Part shown: positions 30,823 through 42,405 of the stretch, piece after piece | How positions within the stretch are numbered: the first letter of the stretch is position 1 | How the letters are laid out: each line of letters begins with the position of its first letter | NCBI GenBank assembly: GCA_037178625.1 | Contig: CM074129.1 | Coordinates: 1,240,001-1,304,000 of the forward strand | DNA length: 64,000 nucleotides | Direction of reading: 5' to 3' | Source of the DNA: Skeletonema tropicum | Lineage: Eukaryota > Bacillariophyta > Thalassiosirophyceae > Thalassiosirales > Thalassiosiraceae | Notes under the pieces: model-generated | What the model was told of the DNA's origin: nothing | The model's database searches: none | What the model saw: the letters and a program-made list of their open reading frames with translations, nothing else | Made by a program: the position numbers and the translations under genes

Positions 30823-33666
30823 ATGTTAGCACTAGATCTAACCAACGACAGAGGCGGCGCAACCCAACGAAGAAACGAGCAGCAAAAAATGCTCCCTCCC
30901 ATCGCCCTCAACAGCAGCCAGCCTCTCTACGCCATCGACCATCAAGCCATATCTTGCGGTAAGCGCCTCATCTCAGGGACAAAGCGGCAAATACAGTTCC
31001 GTTTCGGATTCGCCACTGCAGATAAAATCACGGGGGCCCCATGTCGCAATGCGGTGGAGGAACATGATGTGGTGCTACTGTGGAGTCCGATGATTAGTGG
31101 TCGGGCGGTTGTCAACTGTGATGGACAGGAGGTTTATAATAGCGTCATGTGGGGTGTGAATATGATTGTGGATGTTACTTGGAATATGAGAGGGAGTCAT
31201 GTGCTGAGGATAGTCGCTCATGCAGCTTCGGCTAGTAGCAAGATCAGTGGTGGTCGTCAGTATGAATTATTTGTGAATGGAGTGAGCTACTTTGATTTTC
31301 TCTCGGTGGATCAATTGAAAGTGAAAGCGGATCGGAGTAGTAACAGTCTTGGACTGAGCAAGCGACCGGTAAGAAGACAGAGTAGTATGTTTGAGAAGGG
31401 GGAACCGCATTATTATGACCATTCAGGAATTGATAAGAGGCATAGCAGTCGAGAACTTGGACGTCAACACTCCGAGTACACTCTGTCTCTGGATGAAAGT
31501 GACCGGTCCAGGTCACGAAGAATGAGCTCATTGGCAAACATTGATGAAAGTGAGACATCAAGGCTTTCTTATGAATCAGATATGGCATTACCTCTGGACC
31601 TAAGTGAACGATCTCTTGGGCGTCAATTGATTAACTCCTCCCAATCGAACCTAGATGGTTGTGCCAGATCTTTAGGCATCGGAAAGCAGAGGAAGGTTTA
31701 CAATAATGACGAGAGTGATAAAAGTGGTAGATCAAGGGATTCCTCTCGTAAACACACATCAAAGGCACAGAATCCTACACCTCTGGATCGAAGTGATCGA
31801 TCCCGGCGACAAAAGTTGACTAAATCACAGTCAACTCTAGACAGGAGCGATCGATCATCGAAGTCGGATAGACGTAACGTGCGAAAGCCAAGATCACTAT
31901 CCAATACTTGCGACGAGAATGCACCTCTAGATCCAAGTGATCGATCCCGGCGACAAATGTTGACCAAATCACAGTCAACTGTAGACAGGAGCGATCAATC
32001 ATCCAAGTCGGATGGACGTGACGTGCGAAAGCCAAGATCACTATCCAATACTTGCGACGAGAATGATAGAAGTGATAGGATTTCCAGAGATATCAATCTT
32101 CGTCCGCCACAACCATCAGCCAACACCTATAATCCTGCGGACGAAGATCGCCGGTACAGGAAATCTGTTATGAGTACTTCCTCGGAACAAACCCAAAAGG
32201 TGGCCAACACCTATGACATTACTTCCAAATCGAAAGTGTTTCAATCGTGCACAATCGCAGAAAAGCAACAGCAAGTAAGCTGTGATGATGACGATGACGA
32301 CAATTCCGTTGTCACAATGAAAAGGGCGTTGCGAACTAGCTTTGTCAACGTGGCCAGATCATTATCACCTCCAAAAGGCAATGTAACAATTGTCTACACC
32401 GACGTACAGGGATCTACCCTGCTTTGGGAGTCTTGCCCCAGCGCAATGAAGAAAGCACAAGATATTCACGATACCATCATGCGTCAGTGTTATTCCAATC
32501 ACAAGGGATATGAAATTTCCACGGAAGGAGATTCGTTCAATATTGCATTCCAGCACCCCGTGGATGCTTTAGCTTTTGCACTACAGGCACAGATCAAACT
32601 GTACAAGGCTGATTGGCCACAAGAGATACTGAATCATCCAGACGGAAAGAAGGATCCCTATCTGAAATTCAATGGTTTGAGGGTTCGCTTTGGTATCAAT
32701 CACGGTCCTACTACTAACCAGTTGCATCGAGTCACTGGACGAATGATCTACGCAGGAGAAGGAGTAAAGATTGCAAAGGCCATGGAAGGTCTATGCCACG
32801 GTGGGCAAATCTTGTGCACCATAGAAACTTGGAAGGCAGTAGGTGGTTTGGCGGAGAGGTATCTTGGTCGTCCTCAGGTTATGGATTGTGGAGAGCATGT
32901 CCTATTTGAAGCCAATAGAACCAGATATTCGAGGCGGATTATGCAAATAGTCCCAAACGAATTGGCGTTTGACTTCTTCAAAGCTCGAGGGCAGGTAGAA
33001 GACGGTGCAGTCAAAGATGCGGCGATGGTGAAAGGTCGTTTGTTTCCTCCGTTGCCCTCGAAGAAACAGTTGTCGACATGTTTTCTGAACGCACCGTATA
33101 GAAATGGACGTGTGGTGATATGCTTTGTCCATACTGTGGGTTTGGGCGACGACGATGGATCTGAAAGTCGAGGCCACAACCTTTTGAAGCTGTCTAAGAA
33201 TCTCCGGAAGCAGTTGTTGCGGTTGGATCCTCCGGGCTACGAGTGTCAGGAGGATAACGGATGCTGGATGCTCGCTTTTGAAAACGTTGATAAAGCTGTG
33301 ATGTTTGGTGTAAATTTGATGGCAAGTATTCGAGAAGGAGGAGCAAAGGAACAGCTTCTGGGAGGTGTAGACTGCGATAGAATGTACAAGATTGGCATTG
33401 TGAGCGGCCCTTTTACATCCATGGGTCCTCACAAAACAACTGGGAGGGCTGATTTTTTTGGCCCTATTGTTAACAGAGCAGCAAGAGTTACATCCGACTG
33501 CGAACCAGGTCAGCTTTGTGTTGGAATACCCCTGGTTAGCGGAGCCAGAATTACACCCCCAAACTTTGGGCCTTCAATACAGGTTCGTCTCCTGGGAATT
33601 AAGCAATTGAAAGGAGTGTCAGTTGACGTTGCGGTTTATCGCTGTAGCAAGTATGTAGGAGTATAG
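30823..33666 (+). CDS. class III nucleotide cyclase with two catalytic-homology domains in one chain
   Basis: 947 residues, one exon, ATG at 30823. Residues about 45-165 (RQIQFRFGFA ... YELFVNG) resemble the beta-rich FAIM1 fold (tentative). Residues about 170-500 are Ser/Arg-rich, with 48-residue repeats of the LDRSDRSRRQ type. Domain 1 (about 519-690) has both metal-binding Asp, D527 (YTDVQGST) and D570 (EGDSFNIAF), 43 apart, but lacks the transition-state Asn-Arg. Domain 2 (about 760-940) lacks the first Asp (VHTVGLG) but has D877, N884 and R888 with the exact spacing of animal cyclase C2 domains (D-x6-N-x3-R). The two halves probably form one composite active site making cAMP or cGMP. There is no transmembrane segment, so it is probably soluble. 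Substrate choice is unclear. Confidence 0.82.
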   Translation: MLALDLTNDRGGATQRRNEQQKMLPPIALNSSQPLYAIDHQAISCGKRLISGTKRQIQFRFGFATADKITGAPCRNAVEEHDVVLLWSPMISGRAVVNCDGQEVYNSVMWGVNMIVDVTWNMRGSHVLRIVAHAASASSKISGGRQYELFVNGVSYFDFLSVDQLKVKADRSSNSLGLSKRPVRRQSSMFEKGEPHYYDHSGIDKRHSSRELGRQHSEYTLSLDESDRSRSRRMSSLANIDESETSRLSYESDMALPLDLSERSLGRQLINSSQSNLDGCARSLGIGKQRKVYNNDESDKSGRSRDSSRKHTSKAQNPTPLDRSDRSRRQKLTKSQSTLDRSDRSSKSDRRNVRKPRSLSNTCDENAPLDPSDRSRRQMLTKSQSTVDRSDQSSKSDGRDVRKPRSLSNTCDENDRSDRISRDINLRPPQPSANTYNPADEDRRYRKSVMSTSSEQTQKVANTYDITSKSKVFQSCTIAEKQQQVSCDDDDDDNSVVTMKRALRTSFVNVARSLSPPKGNVTIVYTDVQGSTLLWESCPSAMKKAQDIHDTIMRQCYSNHKGYEISTEGDSFNIAFQHPVDALAFALQAQIKLYKADWPQEILNHPDGKKDPYLKFNGLRVRFGINHGPTTNQLHRVTGRMIYAGEGVKIAKAMEGLCHGGQILCTIETWKAVGGLAERYLGRPQVMDCGEHVLFEANRTRYSRRIMQIVPNELAFDFFKARGQVEDGAVKDAAMVKGRLFPPLPSKKQLSTCFLNAPYRNGRVVICFVHTVGLGDDDGSESRGHNLLKLSKNLRKQLLRLDPPGYECQEDNGCWMLAFENVDKAVMFGVNLMASIREGGAKEQLLGGVDCDRMYKIGIVSGPFTSMGPHKTTGRADFFGPIVNRAARVTSDCEPGQLCVGIPLVSGARITPPNFGPSIQVRLLGIKQLKGVSVDVAVYRCSKYVGV

Positions 33667-34529: not shown

Positions 34530-36329
34530 ATGGCCAAAAATTCCAAAAAGTTGCACAACTACGCCCTACCTTGCTCAGAAGAACCATTGCCATTGCTTCC
34601 ACATACTGCTTTTGCGTGCCCTTTTTTCATAGTAGCTTCATCAAGTGCAGCCGAACATTCCATACGAAAAGGGCACGCAGACTCGGTAATGCAGCCCAAC
34701 GAATCCATGATGCGTGCGCGAAACTTATTATTGGAACTTTTGTTGTTCCTGTCGGTCGGGGAGTCATGTTGGTACACCATCAGCGGAGGCGCAGAAGAGT
34801 ACAGCCTTGCTCGTCGACTTGGATTCTTCAGGAAGGATGAGTACTATGCTTTCCTGGTCGGCACTGGGCTGGCATCATACACTTATGCTGTCGATCCGGT
34901 TACTAAAGAGAGCGAGAAGACGGAGGAGATACAAATCGAAAGAGATCGATGGGAAGCTTTGTTGGTTGAACATAAAAGTGAATTTGAGGTGCAGCAATTT
35001 AATGTTGATTGGAAGAATGCTATGAAAGGTCTAACGCAGAAAGACAAGGAGAAGTCCAGGTTAAATGTCATTCGTATTGGAGAGAGAAGAACAACTGAAA
35101 TAGGTGAAGATGAGGAGGATCAGATCGGATGGAGCTTTAAGAATTATGGTACACAACTAAGAAAACGGAGCGACGGCGTACATAAACCACCGCCTCTGGC
35201 GAAACTATCATCACGTCAACGCACTTTTATTTACAGCATTCGCAATTTGTGTACTGACACTATCTCCGCCGACATTGACTTCTGGGCCAACAAATTTGCG
35301 AGACCAAGTGATGACGCTGACGACGATGTCGAAGATGATGACACTGACGACGATGTCGAAGATGATGACGCTGACGACGATGTCAAAGATGATGACGATG
35401 CCATGGAGCGATTGCAGCGAGCCGCCTGCAAAGAAAGCCAAACCAACTACATTTGTAGAGCATTCATTGAAGTGTCGCGAGAATGGGACCATCAGCGAAG
35501 ACGAAGCAGCACAGTTTGTCTCTAACTTAGATCCAAAGGTATTCAACACTTTGTTTGCACAAATGATGAAGAAGCAACATGAAGAATCGAATGACAGTTA
35601 CGCATTCTCGTATCAAAATGTGAAGAACCTCAAGAGGATGCAATATGTACGAGTGCCAAAGAACAAACTGGATGATACTGATGAATCGTTTACCAAAAGC
35701 AGCAATTGGATCGAAAAGGCCATCGATATGAATTGCGGCGCCAAAGACGACGACTCCAGGATCAAAAGTGCAAAGCGGATCATCAAGACAAAAAAGAAGA
35801 GGTACAACAAGTATGCAAGAATTATGCAACCCTATGCATCTTGTGGGATGGTGCCTTTTCTTATGCAAGCAAGATCAACCCGACTGCAAAGGATGCCAGA
35901 ATGTACGAGCGTTTTATCACAGCTGCAGTCCACGAACATGTTAAAATGGGATTGAACGTCACACCTAAAGTGCACTTGATGTGGGCTCATGTACTAGAAC
36001 AGATGAAATCTGAAGGAGGCTTGGGTAACAAACGTGAAGACTGGGGTGAGAAACAGCACCAAGAGTCTTCGAAGTTGCGAGAGCAATTCCAGTTCACAAA
36101 GGATAGGCAGATCCGTGCCGAAGCCATGGCGGGACTGCGCCAAGAAGAATCGCATCCAGATGTTGTTGCACACGGCGCAACTGTTGATGCAGATTCATGC
36201 CGTGGACCACGTAAGGATTACACATCCAAAGAAGAAGAGCGCAAGAAGAAGCGAGACAAAGTGAGGATGTCAACGCTGGAGAGTGTGGAGGTGGAGTTGT
36301 TTGTTATTGAATTGATTGCATTGAGTTAG
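34530..36329 (+). pseudogene. transposase-like gene broken by two frame changes
   Basis: Coding-like sequence passes through three open frames: 34530-35525, then about 35430-35820 in a second frame (inside 35275-35955), then about 35820-36329 back in the first. The first change lies in or just after an acidic 30-bp repeat (about 35308-35405, DDADDDVEDD). The C-terminal part contains PKVHLMWAHVLEQM then GGLGNKREDWGEKQHQES, a K-x-H-L...H...G-x-L-G...E-x-x-H pattern also seen at 57500-57620 in the inserted transposon. I therefore infer a mobile-element protein of that unnamed group. It is decayed, or intact with sequence errors. No termini found. Confidence 0.45.
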
Positions 36330-36715: not shown

Positions 36716-37933
36716 ATGAAGATCATCGACCTCGTAATCGCATTGGCATACTTTTCTATCCCAGTCCAGATCCTGGTTGCCTTGTGCAAATTCCCCAGAC
36801 TGACAAGAAGAGCGACTACAAAGGTTGTTGTACTGCTGGTTCTATTTGCTTTTTTCATTTTTCTATGCGGAGCGGGACATCTTCTTCGCTGCATAGATAT
36901 GGGCGACACAACATTGTTTCGGGTCGTTAACATCCTTACTGCGGTAATTTCCTTCACAACAAGTATCTATCTTATGCCTTTTGTTCCGAATCTACTGGAA
37001 GGGACGGATAAACTCTATCTGGAGGCAACTACTTCGAAAGAGCTCATCAACAAAATGTATCCTCCTCAGATTAGAGAGCGTCTGTTGAATCGCGAACAAT
37101 CTAGATTGGAATTGGATGGGAGTGGAAGAACAACATCACGAGTGAAGGATGTCAGCACTAAGGAAGTTGAATTGATCGGAGACAGTTCTAAGGAAAGACG
37201 GAAAAGTGATATCAGGCAGCGGATTCAGGAGTTTATTCGGCGCAGAAAAATTGACACATTGGAGGTTGATATCACTCAAGAGGACACAGAGAACGATCTT
37301 CTTGATTCTATTCCGATCGCAGATGATTTCAATGATACATCAATCATGTTTGCTGATATTTCGAGCTTCACCTATTGGTCAAGTCAACACTCACCAATCG
37401 AGGTGTTCACACTTCTTGAATCACTCTTCTTTGAGTTTGATACCATTGCCAATAAAATGGGTATTTACAAGTTGTCAACAGTGGGAGACTGCTACATTGC
37501 TGCTGCTGGAGTACCTTATCCACGGGAGGATCATGCAATAGTACTTACCGAATTTGCTGAATGCTGTCGACAAAGGGCAAATGATCTCTTCGTTAGACTC
37601 AGTCCTAAACTCGACACTGATGATCTTGGCATAAGAATTGGCATACACTCTGGTCCAGTAACAGCTGGAGTGTTGCGCGGCGACAAGGCTCGGTTTGACT
37701 TCTTCGGTGACACAATCAACACAGCACAAAGGATAGAGTCAACGGGTAAGCCAAACGCTGTCCATCTTAGTTCTGAAACAGCACAATTGATTGAAGTAGC
37801 CGGGAAGGGAAATTGGTTACTCCCACGGAAGGATGCAGTCAAGGCGAAAGGGAAGGGAGAATTGAAGACCTATTGGCTCCGAATGAGAGACGAGGAGGAG
37901 TCAAGTGAGGAAGATCCTTCCTGCATGGTGTAA
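36716..37933 (+). CDS. ethylene-receptor-type membrane domain fused to a class III adenylyl/guanylyl cyclase
   Basis: 405 residues from the first ATG. Residues 1-100 form three hydrophobic helices very like the ethylene-binding domain of plant ETR1: IDLVIALAYFSIP, then FIFLCGAGHLL, then NILTAVISFTTSIYLMPFVP. Residues matching ETR1 Asp25, Tyr32, Ile35, Pro36, Ile62, Cys65 and His69 are all present (D5, Y12, I15, P16, I48, C51, H55); Cys and His are the copper ligands in ETR1. After a linker, a single cyclase domain (about 200-375) has metal Asp D214 (FADISSFT) and D258 (GDCY), 44 apart, and D328, N335, R339 (FDFFGDTINTAQR). All needed catalytic residues are there, so it should work as a homodimer. 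The purine site has Asp (adenylyl-like) with Ser254 at the usual Lys/Glu place, so the product is uncertain. Ethylene binding is inferred. Confidence 0.85.
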   Translation: MKIIDLVIALAYFSIPVQILVALCKFPRLTRRATTKVVVLLVLFAFFIFLCGAGHLLRCIDMGDTTLFRVVNILTAVISFTTSIYLMPFVPNLLEGTDKLYLEATTSKELINKMYPPQIRERLLNREQSRLELDGSGRTTSRVKDVSTKEVELIGDSSKERRKSDIRQRIQEFIRRRKIDTLEVDITQEDTENDLLDSIPIADDFNDTSIMFADISSFTYWSSQHSPIEVFTLLESLFFEFDTIANKMGIYKLSTVGDCYIAAAGVPYPREDHAIVLTEFAECCRQRANDLFVRLSPKLDTDDLGIRIGIHSGPVTAGVLRGDKARFDFFGDTINTAQRIESTGKPNAVHLSSETAQLIEVAGKGNWLLPRKDAVKAKGKGELKTYWLRMRDEEESSEEDPSCMV

Positions 37934-38029: not shown

Positions 38030-38902
38030 TTACACTAATGTTGCTTCTTCCAAGTCCAACTTGAAAATAGGGTACCACTCATCCAAAGTGCCCTCTGTCC
38101 TCCAAAGTGAAAGGTATTTGGCATTCCAACCAACTGATGATGCTTTCTTACCATCATCTAATGTTTGATGATCTATTTGTTGCCTTCTTCCTGGAATCCA
38201 TGTTTCATATCGTTTCTCCTCTTCATTTTGTTCTGTATACTTCTTCAAAAATCCATTGGTAACATTCTCTTGATCTTCGGGTGCATAGACTAATGCCATG
38301 TGCGGTCTAAATTTTGGCTCCTCTGCTCCTTCATCATTATTATTACTTTTACCATCATCATCAGTATTGTCATCATCCTCCCCATGCCTCTCATCAGGTG
38401 GAAATCGATTACGAACAATATCATGCAATAATTTTAATTGCGGTGTTGTTTCGAGAATCAAGAGTGAGATGCAGCATCCAAATCCCTTTCCATTGTCGGC
38501 TGTTTTGGGATAGGGGAAGTAGTATTGAGATGTCGGTATTAGTTGTAGCTGCTTGCTACTACTATTAGTTGGTGTTTGTTGACCGTCGTTAAATATGTTG
38601 GCTGCTTGTGTTTGATACTCTTCGAGACATTGACGCAACATTGATTCTGCCTGCTGTCGTTGTTGTGTGGTGGCTGGTTCATCGCAGCTGCTGCCATCAA
38701 CACCATCATCTTGAGGATGATGCAGAGAAGTATTATAAAGCAGCGTACAATGAGGTACAAATGTATACTGCCCCGACGCACTCCCTCCACACTTCTCCCG
38801 GAGGTATTCCATCTCTTTTATCATATGGGATGAGTCATCGGGGGCAGGTTCGAGCCAGAGGGAGATTCCTGAGAATCTGTGAGAGAACTTTGAAGTCGTC
38901 AT
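38030..38902 (-). CDS. 2H phosphoesterase, cyclic phosphodiesterase (CPDase)-like
   Basis: 290 residues, ATG at 38902. The start SGISLWLEPAP and FVPHCTLLY (H51-x-T53) match the first catalytic motif of plant/yeast CPDases. The second motif is FRPHMALVY (H201-x-A203), where the usual Ser/Thr is Ala. The C-terminus SLWRTEGTLDEWYPI also fits the family. Low-complexity inserts (Asp/Asn at about 170-195) make it longer than the roughly 180-residue plant enzymes. The family opens 2',3'-cyclic phosphates of RNA ends or ADP-ribose cyclic phosphate; it is not a cAMP phosphodiesterase, so its closeness to two cyclase genes may be chance. Divergent to PRMT5 with a shared 590-bp upstream region. Confidence 0.75.
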   Translation of the reverse strand: MTTSKFSHRFSGISLWLEPAPDDSSHMIKEMEYLREKCGGSASGQYTFVPHCTLLYNTSLHHPQDDGVDGSSCDEPATTQQRQQAESMLRQCLEEYQTQAANIFNDGQQTPTNSSSKQLQLIPTSQYYFPYPKTADNGKGFGCCISLLILETTPQLKLLHDIVRNRFPPDERHGEDDDNTDDDGKSNNNDEGAEEPKFRPHMALVYAPEDQENVTNGFLKKYTEQNEEEKRYETWIPGRRQQIDHQTLDDGKKASSVGWNAKYLSLWRTEGTLDEWYPIFKLDLEEATLV

Positions 38903-39491: not shown

Positions 39492-40137
39492 ATGGATTCC
39501 ATCTCCGTATCAACAACAGCCCAAAGCACCACCGCCACCCCTTCCCAACAACAACAAGGGGGGACGAGCAGCAACAACCTAATCTGCGGAGTGTTCCATC
39601 CCGAAAATTCTCAAAATGCCTTTCTCTCACTTCAAGATGGGAAGCGTGATGGGTTTGATTATGTTGTGACTGAATTGCCCGTTCCAATTGGCATCAATGC
39701 TGCAGCCGCTGCTGCAACTAATGGAGGAGGGAGAAAGAGTTCTTCTTCGACTAGTAGTGTAGTACGAACTGATGTGAAGAAGATGGATAGTCGATGGTGG
39801 AGTACTTCTGTGGTTGGTATTGTTGGAGATCCTCCTCATTGGAACACGGCAGCATCATCATCGACTACAAGATCTGTTGTACATAATAATTCTTCTTCTT
39901 CTACCGCTACTACTACGGGCAGTGAATTAATCAAGGTGTTGACATCATCCAAAATTGGTTCGTCGTCAAAGAAGAAACAAGAGGCAGAGAAAATATTTTG
40001 GGGAATGATGGAATGGGCATCGCACATGTGTATTCCTGCAGTTATCTTGCCGACTATACCCCTTGGTGATGATGATGTTGATTCCAATACAATTGGTAGC
40101 AGTGATGAAGAGGATATGTTTGATGACTCTTCCAATG

Positions 40138-40168
<31 letters not shown>

Positions 40169-42405
40169 ACAACAACCTCAAGATCAAACAATGAAGAAAA
40201 AGAAGAAGAACGCCTCAATCAACAATACATCCGCCAAAGAATACGCTCGTCTCATCAGTCAACTATCCACATCATCCATCTGCACCACATCACGTGTCCA
40301 ACTATGGATTCGTGTTCCACTAACACTCCAACACCTCCAGGCATATCAATTACTCCTATCACGATGTGATCACTCCCCCAGTATCGGATGCATGCTATCC
40401 ATTACATCACCACTCAACAGTAGTAATGCTACTACTACCGAATTACCATCAATGACACGAGCATTGCACACCATCATGGGAGGGGGACATGTCAAGGGTA
40501 TCAGTTGGGATGTAGCGGTATTTCTCAAGAATAAACGGGGATATCCGACATTATCGAAGGGTCATCAATATTTGTTTCGATTGGTGTATGGTCGACTTGG
40601 TAGGACGTTGCGTACATTGGTAGAGGGACGGTTTGTTGTTGTTGCCGGGTGGTGGTAGTGGTGGTGCAGTATTGAATCATCAGGAAGATGGTGGTGGTGA
40701 AAGTAGTCCAACGAGGAGGTATTATTTACAATACTTGGCACATTTACGGTCAAGAGCACCTCTTCCATCATTATTGGATAGTGAAGAGGCGTTATTGGAG
40801 ACTCCGTATCTTGATAATCTGCAGTCACCGTTACAACCATTGGGGGATCATTTGGAGTATCAAACATATGAAACGTTTGAGAAGGATCCAGTGAAATATA
40901 AGAGGTATGGAGAGGCAGTGCATTTGGCATTGGAGGATGGGATGAAGGAGGGGAAGTTTCCATTTGTAAAGAGGGTTAAAAGCAATGTGTCATATTTGAG
41001 ACAGATTATTGCCTCTGGAGAAGGTGGTGAATTGGGATTATTAGAGGACTTGTTACTGGACAGTATGAACAAACGAGATGGAGTCGTTCTTGATGTAGAT
41101 CTGTATGAAGCAACCATTTTTGTAGTGGGTGCCGGCCGAGGTCCATTGGTGCGCGAGTCCATTGCCGCTGTTGCACGGGTAGCTTCTTCAATGTTGGTTG
41201 AAAACAAGGCTCTTATTGCAAAAGTTGTTGCCATTGAGAAAAACCCAAGCGCAGTGTTGTATCTTCAGAGTTTGAAGAGTACTCAGCGATCGTGGAATGG
41301 TGGAGAGGAGTATGCGGAACAGTTGGATTTGCATTATCCTCACAATTGTGGTAATGATATTGAGGTATTGACTCGAAGAGGTGGCATTACGTCTCCACTT
41401 CCTGGACTATCGAACGTGACGGTTATTGGTTGTGATATGCGTGAGGCGACATCTCATCCGCTGCTAAAGTTTATGATACAAAATGAAGAATTTAGGGCGG
41501 ACATTGTTGTCAGTGAACTGCTTGGGAGTTTTGGTGACAATGAACTGTCCCCAGAATGTTTGGATGGAGTACAACGATGTGGAATTCTGAAGGATGATTG
41601 CGTGAGCATTCCACAGAATTACACTGCATTTATTGCTCCTGTGTCATCCTCTCGCCTTTTTTCCGAAGCTAGATGTCAATCCAGCTTCCCTGCTCATCCG
41701 GAGGAGGGACCAGCAGCTCCAGCAAGTGGAATGCAAAGAGCCTTGGAGACACCGTATGTTGTGAGGAGTCACGCAGCTAGTCAAACTCATCCAGAGATTG
41801 CTTGCTGGACCTTTTCTCATCCACGACCTTCAAAAAGTGACACAAGAATGGACACAGAGGAGAACAGCTCCAACAAATTCAACGCTAGTGCCGAGGCTGC
41901 GAAAAATATCAATAATGATCGGCATGCTCACGTTTCTTTTCGCAGTGATCCAATGCTTGGTGCAAGTGCTGGCTGCGGATATGGTGCTCTGAATACAGAA
42001 ATGCCCTCCGTGGATGTCAATGAGGGAGGTGATGGGACCAATGTGACTATCCATGGCTTCTTGGGATCATTTCACTCAGTATTGTACGAGTCACCTTCTG
42101 ACAGGTCAAAAGTGGGGAAAATGAAACGGAAATCATCAACCGAAGAAGAACGGCTTTCTGTTATCAGCATCGCCCCAAATTCTTTCTCAGTTGGAATGTT
42201 CAGCTGGTTTCCACTGTATTTTCCACTGAAGCAGCCCCTCTGTGTACCAGAAGGAAGTACAGTGAACTGCAGCGTGTGGAGACGATCTGACGATGCGAGG
42301 GTGTGGTACGAATGGTGCGCAGAAGTTATTGACGATGACGGCAATGTGTGGTCGACGAGCTCGATACATAACCCTGGAGGAAGATCGTATCACGTTCGTC
42401 TTTGA
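39492..42405 (+). CDS. PRMT5: protein arginine methyltransferase 5 (PRMT5), with an apparent frameshift
   Basis: The 5' frame (39492-40658) encodes the N-terminal TIM-barrel part, with low-complexity inserts, ending in a conserved block (KNKRGYPTLSKGHQYLFRL ... RFVVVAG). At the GGGTGGTGGTAG run near 40645-40656 that frame stops, and the protein continues in another frame to 42405: YYLQYLAHL, then NLQSPLQPLGDHLEYQTYE, the SAM site VVGAGRGPLV, and the active-site loop SELLGSFGDNELSPECLDG with both conserved Glu. It ends with GMFSWFPLYFP...KQPL and IHNPGGRSYHVRL. PRMT5 makes symmetric dimethylarginine on histones and Sm proteins. Because PRMT5 is a conserved housekeeping gene, the single frame change in a G-rich simple repeat is more likely a sequence error than real loss. 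Confidence 0.88.

Follow-up and report, generated by a model that had tools for sequence, protein, structure and literature searches.

The stretch of DNA analysed here (the window; 64,000 nucleotides of contig CM074129.1 of the diatom Skeletonema tropicum) carries a gene in which a single open reading frame (ORF) encodes an ethylene-binding-type membrane sensor fused to a class III nucleotide cyclase. The intronless ORF runs from ATG 36716 to TAA 37933, and a Pfam scan of the 405-AA product revealed ETR1_N (PF25487) and Guanylate_cyc as the sole domains above cut-off (Table 1); an NCBIfam search of the protein gave no relevant match. The same reading frame stays open upstream as far as TTG 36602, and the start Met at 36716 is also used by the close relatives P0001, P0002, and P0004. 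A preliminary description of this DNA had placed sensor and cyclase in one ORF of a diatom and read the product as a receptor converting an ethylene-like gas or Cu(I) signal into cyclic AMP (cAMP) or cyclic GMP (cGMP). The fusion ORF is confirmed, as both Pfam domains lie within a single open frame and the fusion is kept in relatives, and the diatom attribution agrees with the organism names of these relatives; the interpretation overall is partly supported. We consider it somewhat likelier than even that the product is a one-protein membrane receptor in which a cyclase is gated by a sensor that needs Cu(I) to bind ethylene or an alkene. The support in hand consists of the two domains in one ORF, homology, conserved residues at the binding and catalytic sites, and a fusion that recurs in relatives.

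Table 1. Features of the gene and of its surroundings in the window
Feature	Position	Strand	Evidence or remark
Whole gene, ethylene-binding-type sensor + class III nucleotide cyclase	36716..37933	+	405 AA, single exon; ORF, Pfam, homologues
Ethylene-binding-type membrane domain, AA 3-95, three helices	36722..37000	+	ETR1_N, 3.1e-17, 63.1 bits (cut-off 27)
Helix 3, predicted to extend from membrane to cytosol, AA 66-114, proposed signal helix, N72 for K91	36911..37057	+	AlphaFold model
Juxtamembrane motif K-M-Y-P-P-x-x-R-E-R-L-L, AA 113-125	37052..37090	+	Conservation in 35 rows
Variable linker, mostly disordered, AA 126-203	37091..37324	+	AlphaFold confidence, relatives
Class III nucleotide cyclase domain, AA 204-389	37325..37882	+	Guanylate_cyc, 153.8 bits (cut-off 21.9), 4.8e-45
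Second class III cyclase, 947 AA, two tandem cyclase-like stretches	30823..33666	+	About 3 kb upstream, same strand
27-base tandem repeat, 3.3 copies	35309..35400		Encodes Asp-rich stretch of hypothetical upstream ORF
Convergent neighbour, cyclic-phosphodiesterase-like domain	38030..38902	-	CPDase, 2.3e-08
PRMT5 arginine methyltransferase across two ORFs, perhaps split by an intron	39492..42405	+	Pfam

The claim of an ethylene-receptor-type membrane domain survived the profile search, the ETR1_N score lying above the cut-off. Alignment to Arabidopsis ETR1 paired D5, Y12, I15, P16, I48, C51, and H55 of the S. tropicum protein with ETR1 D25, Y32, I35, P36, I62, C65, and H69; all seven are identical and were found where the preliminary description had placed the ethylene- and copper-binding residues. 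Among them is Y32, which we take to be an ethylene-binding residue of ETR1. The loop between helices 1 and 2 is, as described earlier, 6 residues longer than in ETR1 (32 residues from P16 to I48 vs. 26 from P36 to I62), and the helix 2–3 stretch, absent from that description, is five residues shorter (20 vs. 25). A passage of PMC6944256 gives seven residues as required for ethylene binding, and passages of PMC6586836 name six of the seven, with I35, P36, and I62 essential to ethylene binding and distinct from the copper residues. When the sensor domain was compared by sequence with solved structures at E up to 1, no relative was found, the one match being a ribosomal protein (E 0.65).

Conservation of the binding site extends to the relatives. 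In a 35-row family alignment, the rows reaching the sites kept C51 in 30/30, H55 in 28/30, I48 in 29/30, Y12 and I15 in 27/27 each, and D5 and P16 in 26/27 each. A broader comparison took in sensor stretches longer than 75 residues and left out ten shorter ones (L050, L077, P0008, P0013, P0018, P0021, P0136, P0138, P0139, and P0042, whose site has decayed). All seven residues were kept in 37 of 42 sensor domains of what we call the diatom clade, a label that we infer for most of its kinase proteins; these 42 comprise 26 cyclase and 14 kinase proteins and 2 without a called output, the window protein included. The exceptions were P0130 and P0133 (N for D), P0036 (A for P and R for H), and P0019 and P0030, where the D site has no letter in the clade alignment. 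Mean conservation over the 42 sensors was 0.98 for the seven sites and 0.695 for all 92 sites, and seven random columns were equally conserved in 31 of 200,000 draws. As a limit on this argument, the sensor domain of the window protein is identical with ETR1 at 32 of 86 aligned positions, and the probability that chance alone puts all seven sites among them is 6e-4. Two proteins, P0036 and P0042 (from Stephanodiscus triporus), combine a decayed sensor site with intact cyclase residues and are natural predicted non-binders: the H is changed to R in both, the P to A in P0036, and the I to V in P0042.

The AlphaFold model contains helices at residues 3–25, 35–59, and 66–114, which would form the three transmembrane helices, and its predicted local distance difference test score (pLDDT) ranges from 69 to 89 per 10-residue block over AA 1–100. 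Beyond about AA 100 the score of helix 3 is just 50–58. In the juxtamembrane motif, P116 and R122 are invariant and Y115 and R120 almost invariant across the 35 rows; we propose that it may serve as the cyclase-transducing element. The linker that follows has pLDDT below 50 at residues 129–163 and 175–202, and its length differs widely across relatives.

The C-terminal domain has the profile and fold of a class III catalytic domain. By homology, D214 and D258 would bind metal, S254 and D328 would contact the base, and N335 and R339 would act on the transition state. The earlier claim of a complete catalytic set is borne out at D214, D258, D328, N335, and R339, which are placed as described, and weakened at the Lys/Glu base-selecting position, which is Ser254. 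Canonical base-selecting pairs are Lys/Asp in adenylate and Glu/Cys in guanylate cyclases. Since the base-selecting position is Ser254, the nucleotide cannot be read from the sequence; Asp328 matches the adenylate-type residue in the alignment to AC5, and we therefore lean weakly to cAMP rather than cGMP as the predicted product. The Ser/Asp pair recurs in 23 of 31 sensor-cyclases; of the other cyclases listed, 61 after thinning at 80% identity, 51 have Glu/Gln.

In the mechanism that we propose, the three N-terminal helices would dimerise, C51 and H55 would hold Cu(I), and D5 would position H55. Binding of ethylene or another small alkene to the Cu(I) would shift helix 3, helical on to about residue 114, and this movement would be relayed through the conserved YPPxxRERLL element and the flexible linker to the cyclase domains. 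These would form a homodimer with two active sites across the interface, and their product would be a cyclic nucleotide, with cAMP likelier than cGMP. The dimer, the copper, the ligand, the product, and the direction of control, whether activation or inhibition, are all inferred.

Several observations weigh against this mechanism. ETR1 K91, a helix-3 lysine linked to D25 and described in a passage of PMC11819568 as involved in receptor output, is replaced by N72, which weakens the earlier statement that the domain keeps every residue known to matter for ethylene/copper binding. Asn occupies the site in 40 of 42 clade members (window protein counted), and 41 of 65 bacterial proteins have Lys and 62 of 65 have Lys, Gln, or Arg. 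The lysine appears to be typical rather than a defining trait of the ethylene-binding domain (EBD), because 24 of the 65 bacterial proteins also do without it. The N-terminus is short and has no PxGxC segment, which is present in 58 of the 65 bacterial proteins. The whole-protein model has modest confidence (mean pLDDT 69.8, predicted template modelling score 0.49), the Ser254/Asp328 pair is of neither adenylate nor guanylate type, and the copper His is lost in P0036 and P0042, with the cyclase residues retained.

Three other readings of the sensor were considered. Copper itself, its redox state or its supply, could be the signal, with the loading of Cu(I) setting cyclase activity and ethylene binding incidental. 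The conservation of C51 and H55 is in line with this, as are the replacement of the output-linked lysine and the dissociation constant near 1e-15 M given for Cu(I) and the purified ETR1 sensor in a passage of PMC6586836; yet the equivalents of I35, P36, and I62 are equally conserved (27/27, 26/27, and 29/30), and we regard a pure copper sensor as unlikely. It is quite unlikely, in our view, that the membrane domain senses nothing and only anchors and dimerises a constitutive cyclase. The degenerate sites of P0036 and P0042 speak for such a role, but a mere anchor would not need the elevated conservation of the seven sites, which so few random column sets reached. Adaptation of the site in the diatom clade to a different small ligand such as isoprene, acetylene, or CO is very unlikely: the diatom-clade sensors do have their own traits (N72, the longer helix 1–2 loop, the shorter helix 2–3 loop) and sit on one long branch (Shimodaira–Hasegawa-like approximate likelihood ratio test, SH-aLRT, 100), but all seven ethylene-binding residues are unchanged and nothing positive points to another ligand.

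A further alternative is that two adjacent genes, or an assembly join, were misread as one. The gene models of P0003, P0007, P0009, P0010, P0028, and P0043 begin inside the sensor, and their transcripts could differ; however, these shortened models still open with residues of helix 3 and with the juxtamembrane motif, compatible with missed first exons. Both domains were found in at least 29 homologues among the 120 listed of 1048 matches, and those with an organism name represent at least two genera (Cyclotella and Cyclostephanos). In view of the unbroken frame and of the recurring fusion, we rejected the artefact and two-gene readings as extremely improbable. As a separate observation, insertions or late starts in the sensors of P0018, P0021, P0121, P0007, P0003, P0009, and P0010 suggest introns or missed first exons at various points of these genes, unlike in the intronless gene of the window.

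The four named proteins among the 29 come from Cyclotella cryptica (two), Cyclotella cf. meneghiniana, and Cyclostephanos tholiformis, all diatoms; a C. cryptica relative is 64% identical. For a Skeletonema marinoi relative, the model of which has no first helices, identity is 79% across 85% of the query. The search with the sensor alone (E up to 10) returned 47 proteins: the sensor was combined with a cyclase in 22 and with a histidine kinase in 17 and stood alone in 2, and the other 6 were cyclase models without a called sensor. The nearest non-cyclase sensors are borne by histidine kinases (P0123–P0139), which are 43–63% identical over the aligned part; of the 14 that were scored, 13 have Asn at site 72. 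They differ in their histidine-kinase output, many with a receiver. No GAF or histidine-kinase domain above cut-off was detected in the window protein or in the 35 family rows. The sensor-only protein P0122 (taxid Minutocellus polymorphus, order Cymatosirales) groups with two sensor-cyclases (support 99, sensor tree), which suggests that the fusion may not be restricted to Thalassiosirales.

Compared with ETR1, the protein shares the three-helix membrane domain and all seven binding residues; beside the altered loops and the K91 replacement, it differs in having no detected GAF, histidine-kinase, or receiver domain and a very short N-terminus that has none of the luminal cysteines of ETR1. Bacterial SynEtr1/AzoEtr1-type proteins have the same domain, with all seven residues in 56 of 65 scored, and mostly histidine-kinase outputs. 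A pattern scan of a bacterial and archaeal genome collection, which requires one of two conserved peptides and is far from complete, found at least 68 sensor loci. The domain scan covered 62 of their proteins, leaving out L016, L024, L032, and L058 (contig end), L050 (103 AA), and L077 (65 AA), and gave HATPase_c in 51, HisKA in 49, GGDEF in 3, EAL in 3, and a class III cyclase in one, Okeania L027. This Okeania EBD-cyclase (L027, P0141) has the same two-domain order in 420 AA, and the 120 listed homologues of the L027 protein include one further two-domain protein, P0142. The L027 genome, Okeania sp. SIO3I5, also has a second, short EBD frame (L050), on a contig equal in length (53,586) to the one listed for a separate 254-AA cyclase, P0168; this may be a copy of the fusion that has been broken or split. 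As to viral origin or spread, none of the 349 stretches that matched a pattern was confirmed, a result that holds for the viral-contig collection scanned and the two patterns used.

In a sensor tree of 110 rows, built by a quick method from just 93 columns, the cyclase and kinase proteins of the diatom clade are set apart on the long branch mentioned above, and the Okeania pair nests inside cyanobacterial sensors. With the profile of the diatom cyclases, the Okeania cyclase reaches only 42 bits. Because the diatom clade stands apart while the Okeania sensors fall within cyanobacteria, the fusion most likely arose at least twice, the Okeania EBD-cyclase being an independent event; descent of the complete fusion from cyanobacteria is disfavoured by this separate grouping and the low cyclase score. 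The 14 kinase sensors of the diatom clade group together (84), adjoining two cyclase sensors (87). In the free cyclase tree, which took in three other cyanobacterial cyclases, not P0141, and L002 and L004 of the five loci of the own genome, the 31 sensor-cyclases were scattered (6 changes, 4 forced by starred branches). Constraining the 31 to one clade gave a better likelihood, and one clade was not rejected by the approximately unbiased test (p-AU 0.819); the N-terminally truncated P0026, P0028, P0039, and P0040 were left out of both sets. A single fusion in diatoms would fit these results.

In the S. tropicum genome (78.4 Mb, 125 contigs), six-frame profile searches, which disregard introns and score limited candidates so that counts are lower bounds, found no sensor domain other than that of the window and no sensor-histidine kinase of the P0123–P0139 type. 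The sensor search at E up to 1 gave weak matches in 3 of 14 control genomes, none above cut-off. The EIN3 search gave no match, but the control was likewise silent, hence the result is uninformative. The genome further has 12 PDEase_I matches, 68 cNMP-binding matches (65 above cut-off, several per gene), and 4 HisKA matches. At least 17 cyclase matches were found, and the second cyclase of the window is not among them; two matches of equal score (G000 C1:569000 and C95:72078) are perhaps haplotype duplicates in the assembly.

That second cyclase is distant from the cyclase of the fusion, its closest solved relative being the receptor-type adenylate cyclase GRESAG 4.3, and it has the metal Asps in stretch 1 and the Asn/Arg in stretch 2, as in a split C1/C2 active site. 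CPDase family substrates are cyclic phosphates other than cAMP, and we claim no functional link for the convergent neighbour. In the first ORF of the PRMT5 gene, the TIM-barrel match was slightly below cut-off (29 vs. 30.2 bits).

A sensor joined to a class III cyclase is already known. NO-sensing soluble guanylate cyclase and light-gated RhoGC likewise fuse a small-signal sensor directly to a cyclase of the same catalytic fold; they differ in having an unrelated sensor, haem and rhodopsin, respectively, vs. the membrane Cu(I)-type site here, and other base-selecting residues. In open papers, covered as titles, abstract starts, and passages by the top results of broad queries, not all aimed at this topic, we found no sensor-cyclase fusion described; as far as these results show, one relevant figure aside, an ethylene-type sensor with cyclase output, conserved in diatoms, is new. 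The chances are about even that diatoms have here a receptor that turns a gas signal into a second messenger in one step, with an ethylene (or alkene) sensor like that of plant receptors joined straight to a cyclase. It would be for alkenes what soluble guanylate cyclase is for NO, with the output swapped on a diatom-clade sensor, Asn in place of the output lysine, and a parallel evolution in a cyanobacterium.

According to PMC7700396 (2020), there had been no functional study of these homologues in the SAR supergroup. The fusion bears on whether diatoms perceive ethylene through such proteins, and having the sensor on an enzyme makes the question direct, because ligand added to a purified system should alter its production of cyclic nucleotide, and no phosphorelay has to be rebuilt. 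A possible use is a genetically encoded ethylene reporter. The fusion would also show how one kind of sensor domain may be exchanged between a kinase and a cyclase as output.
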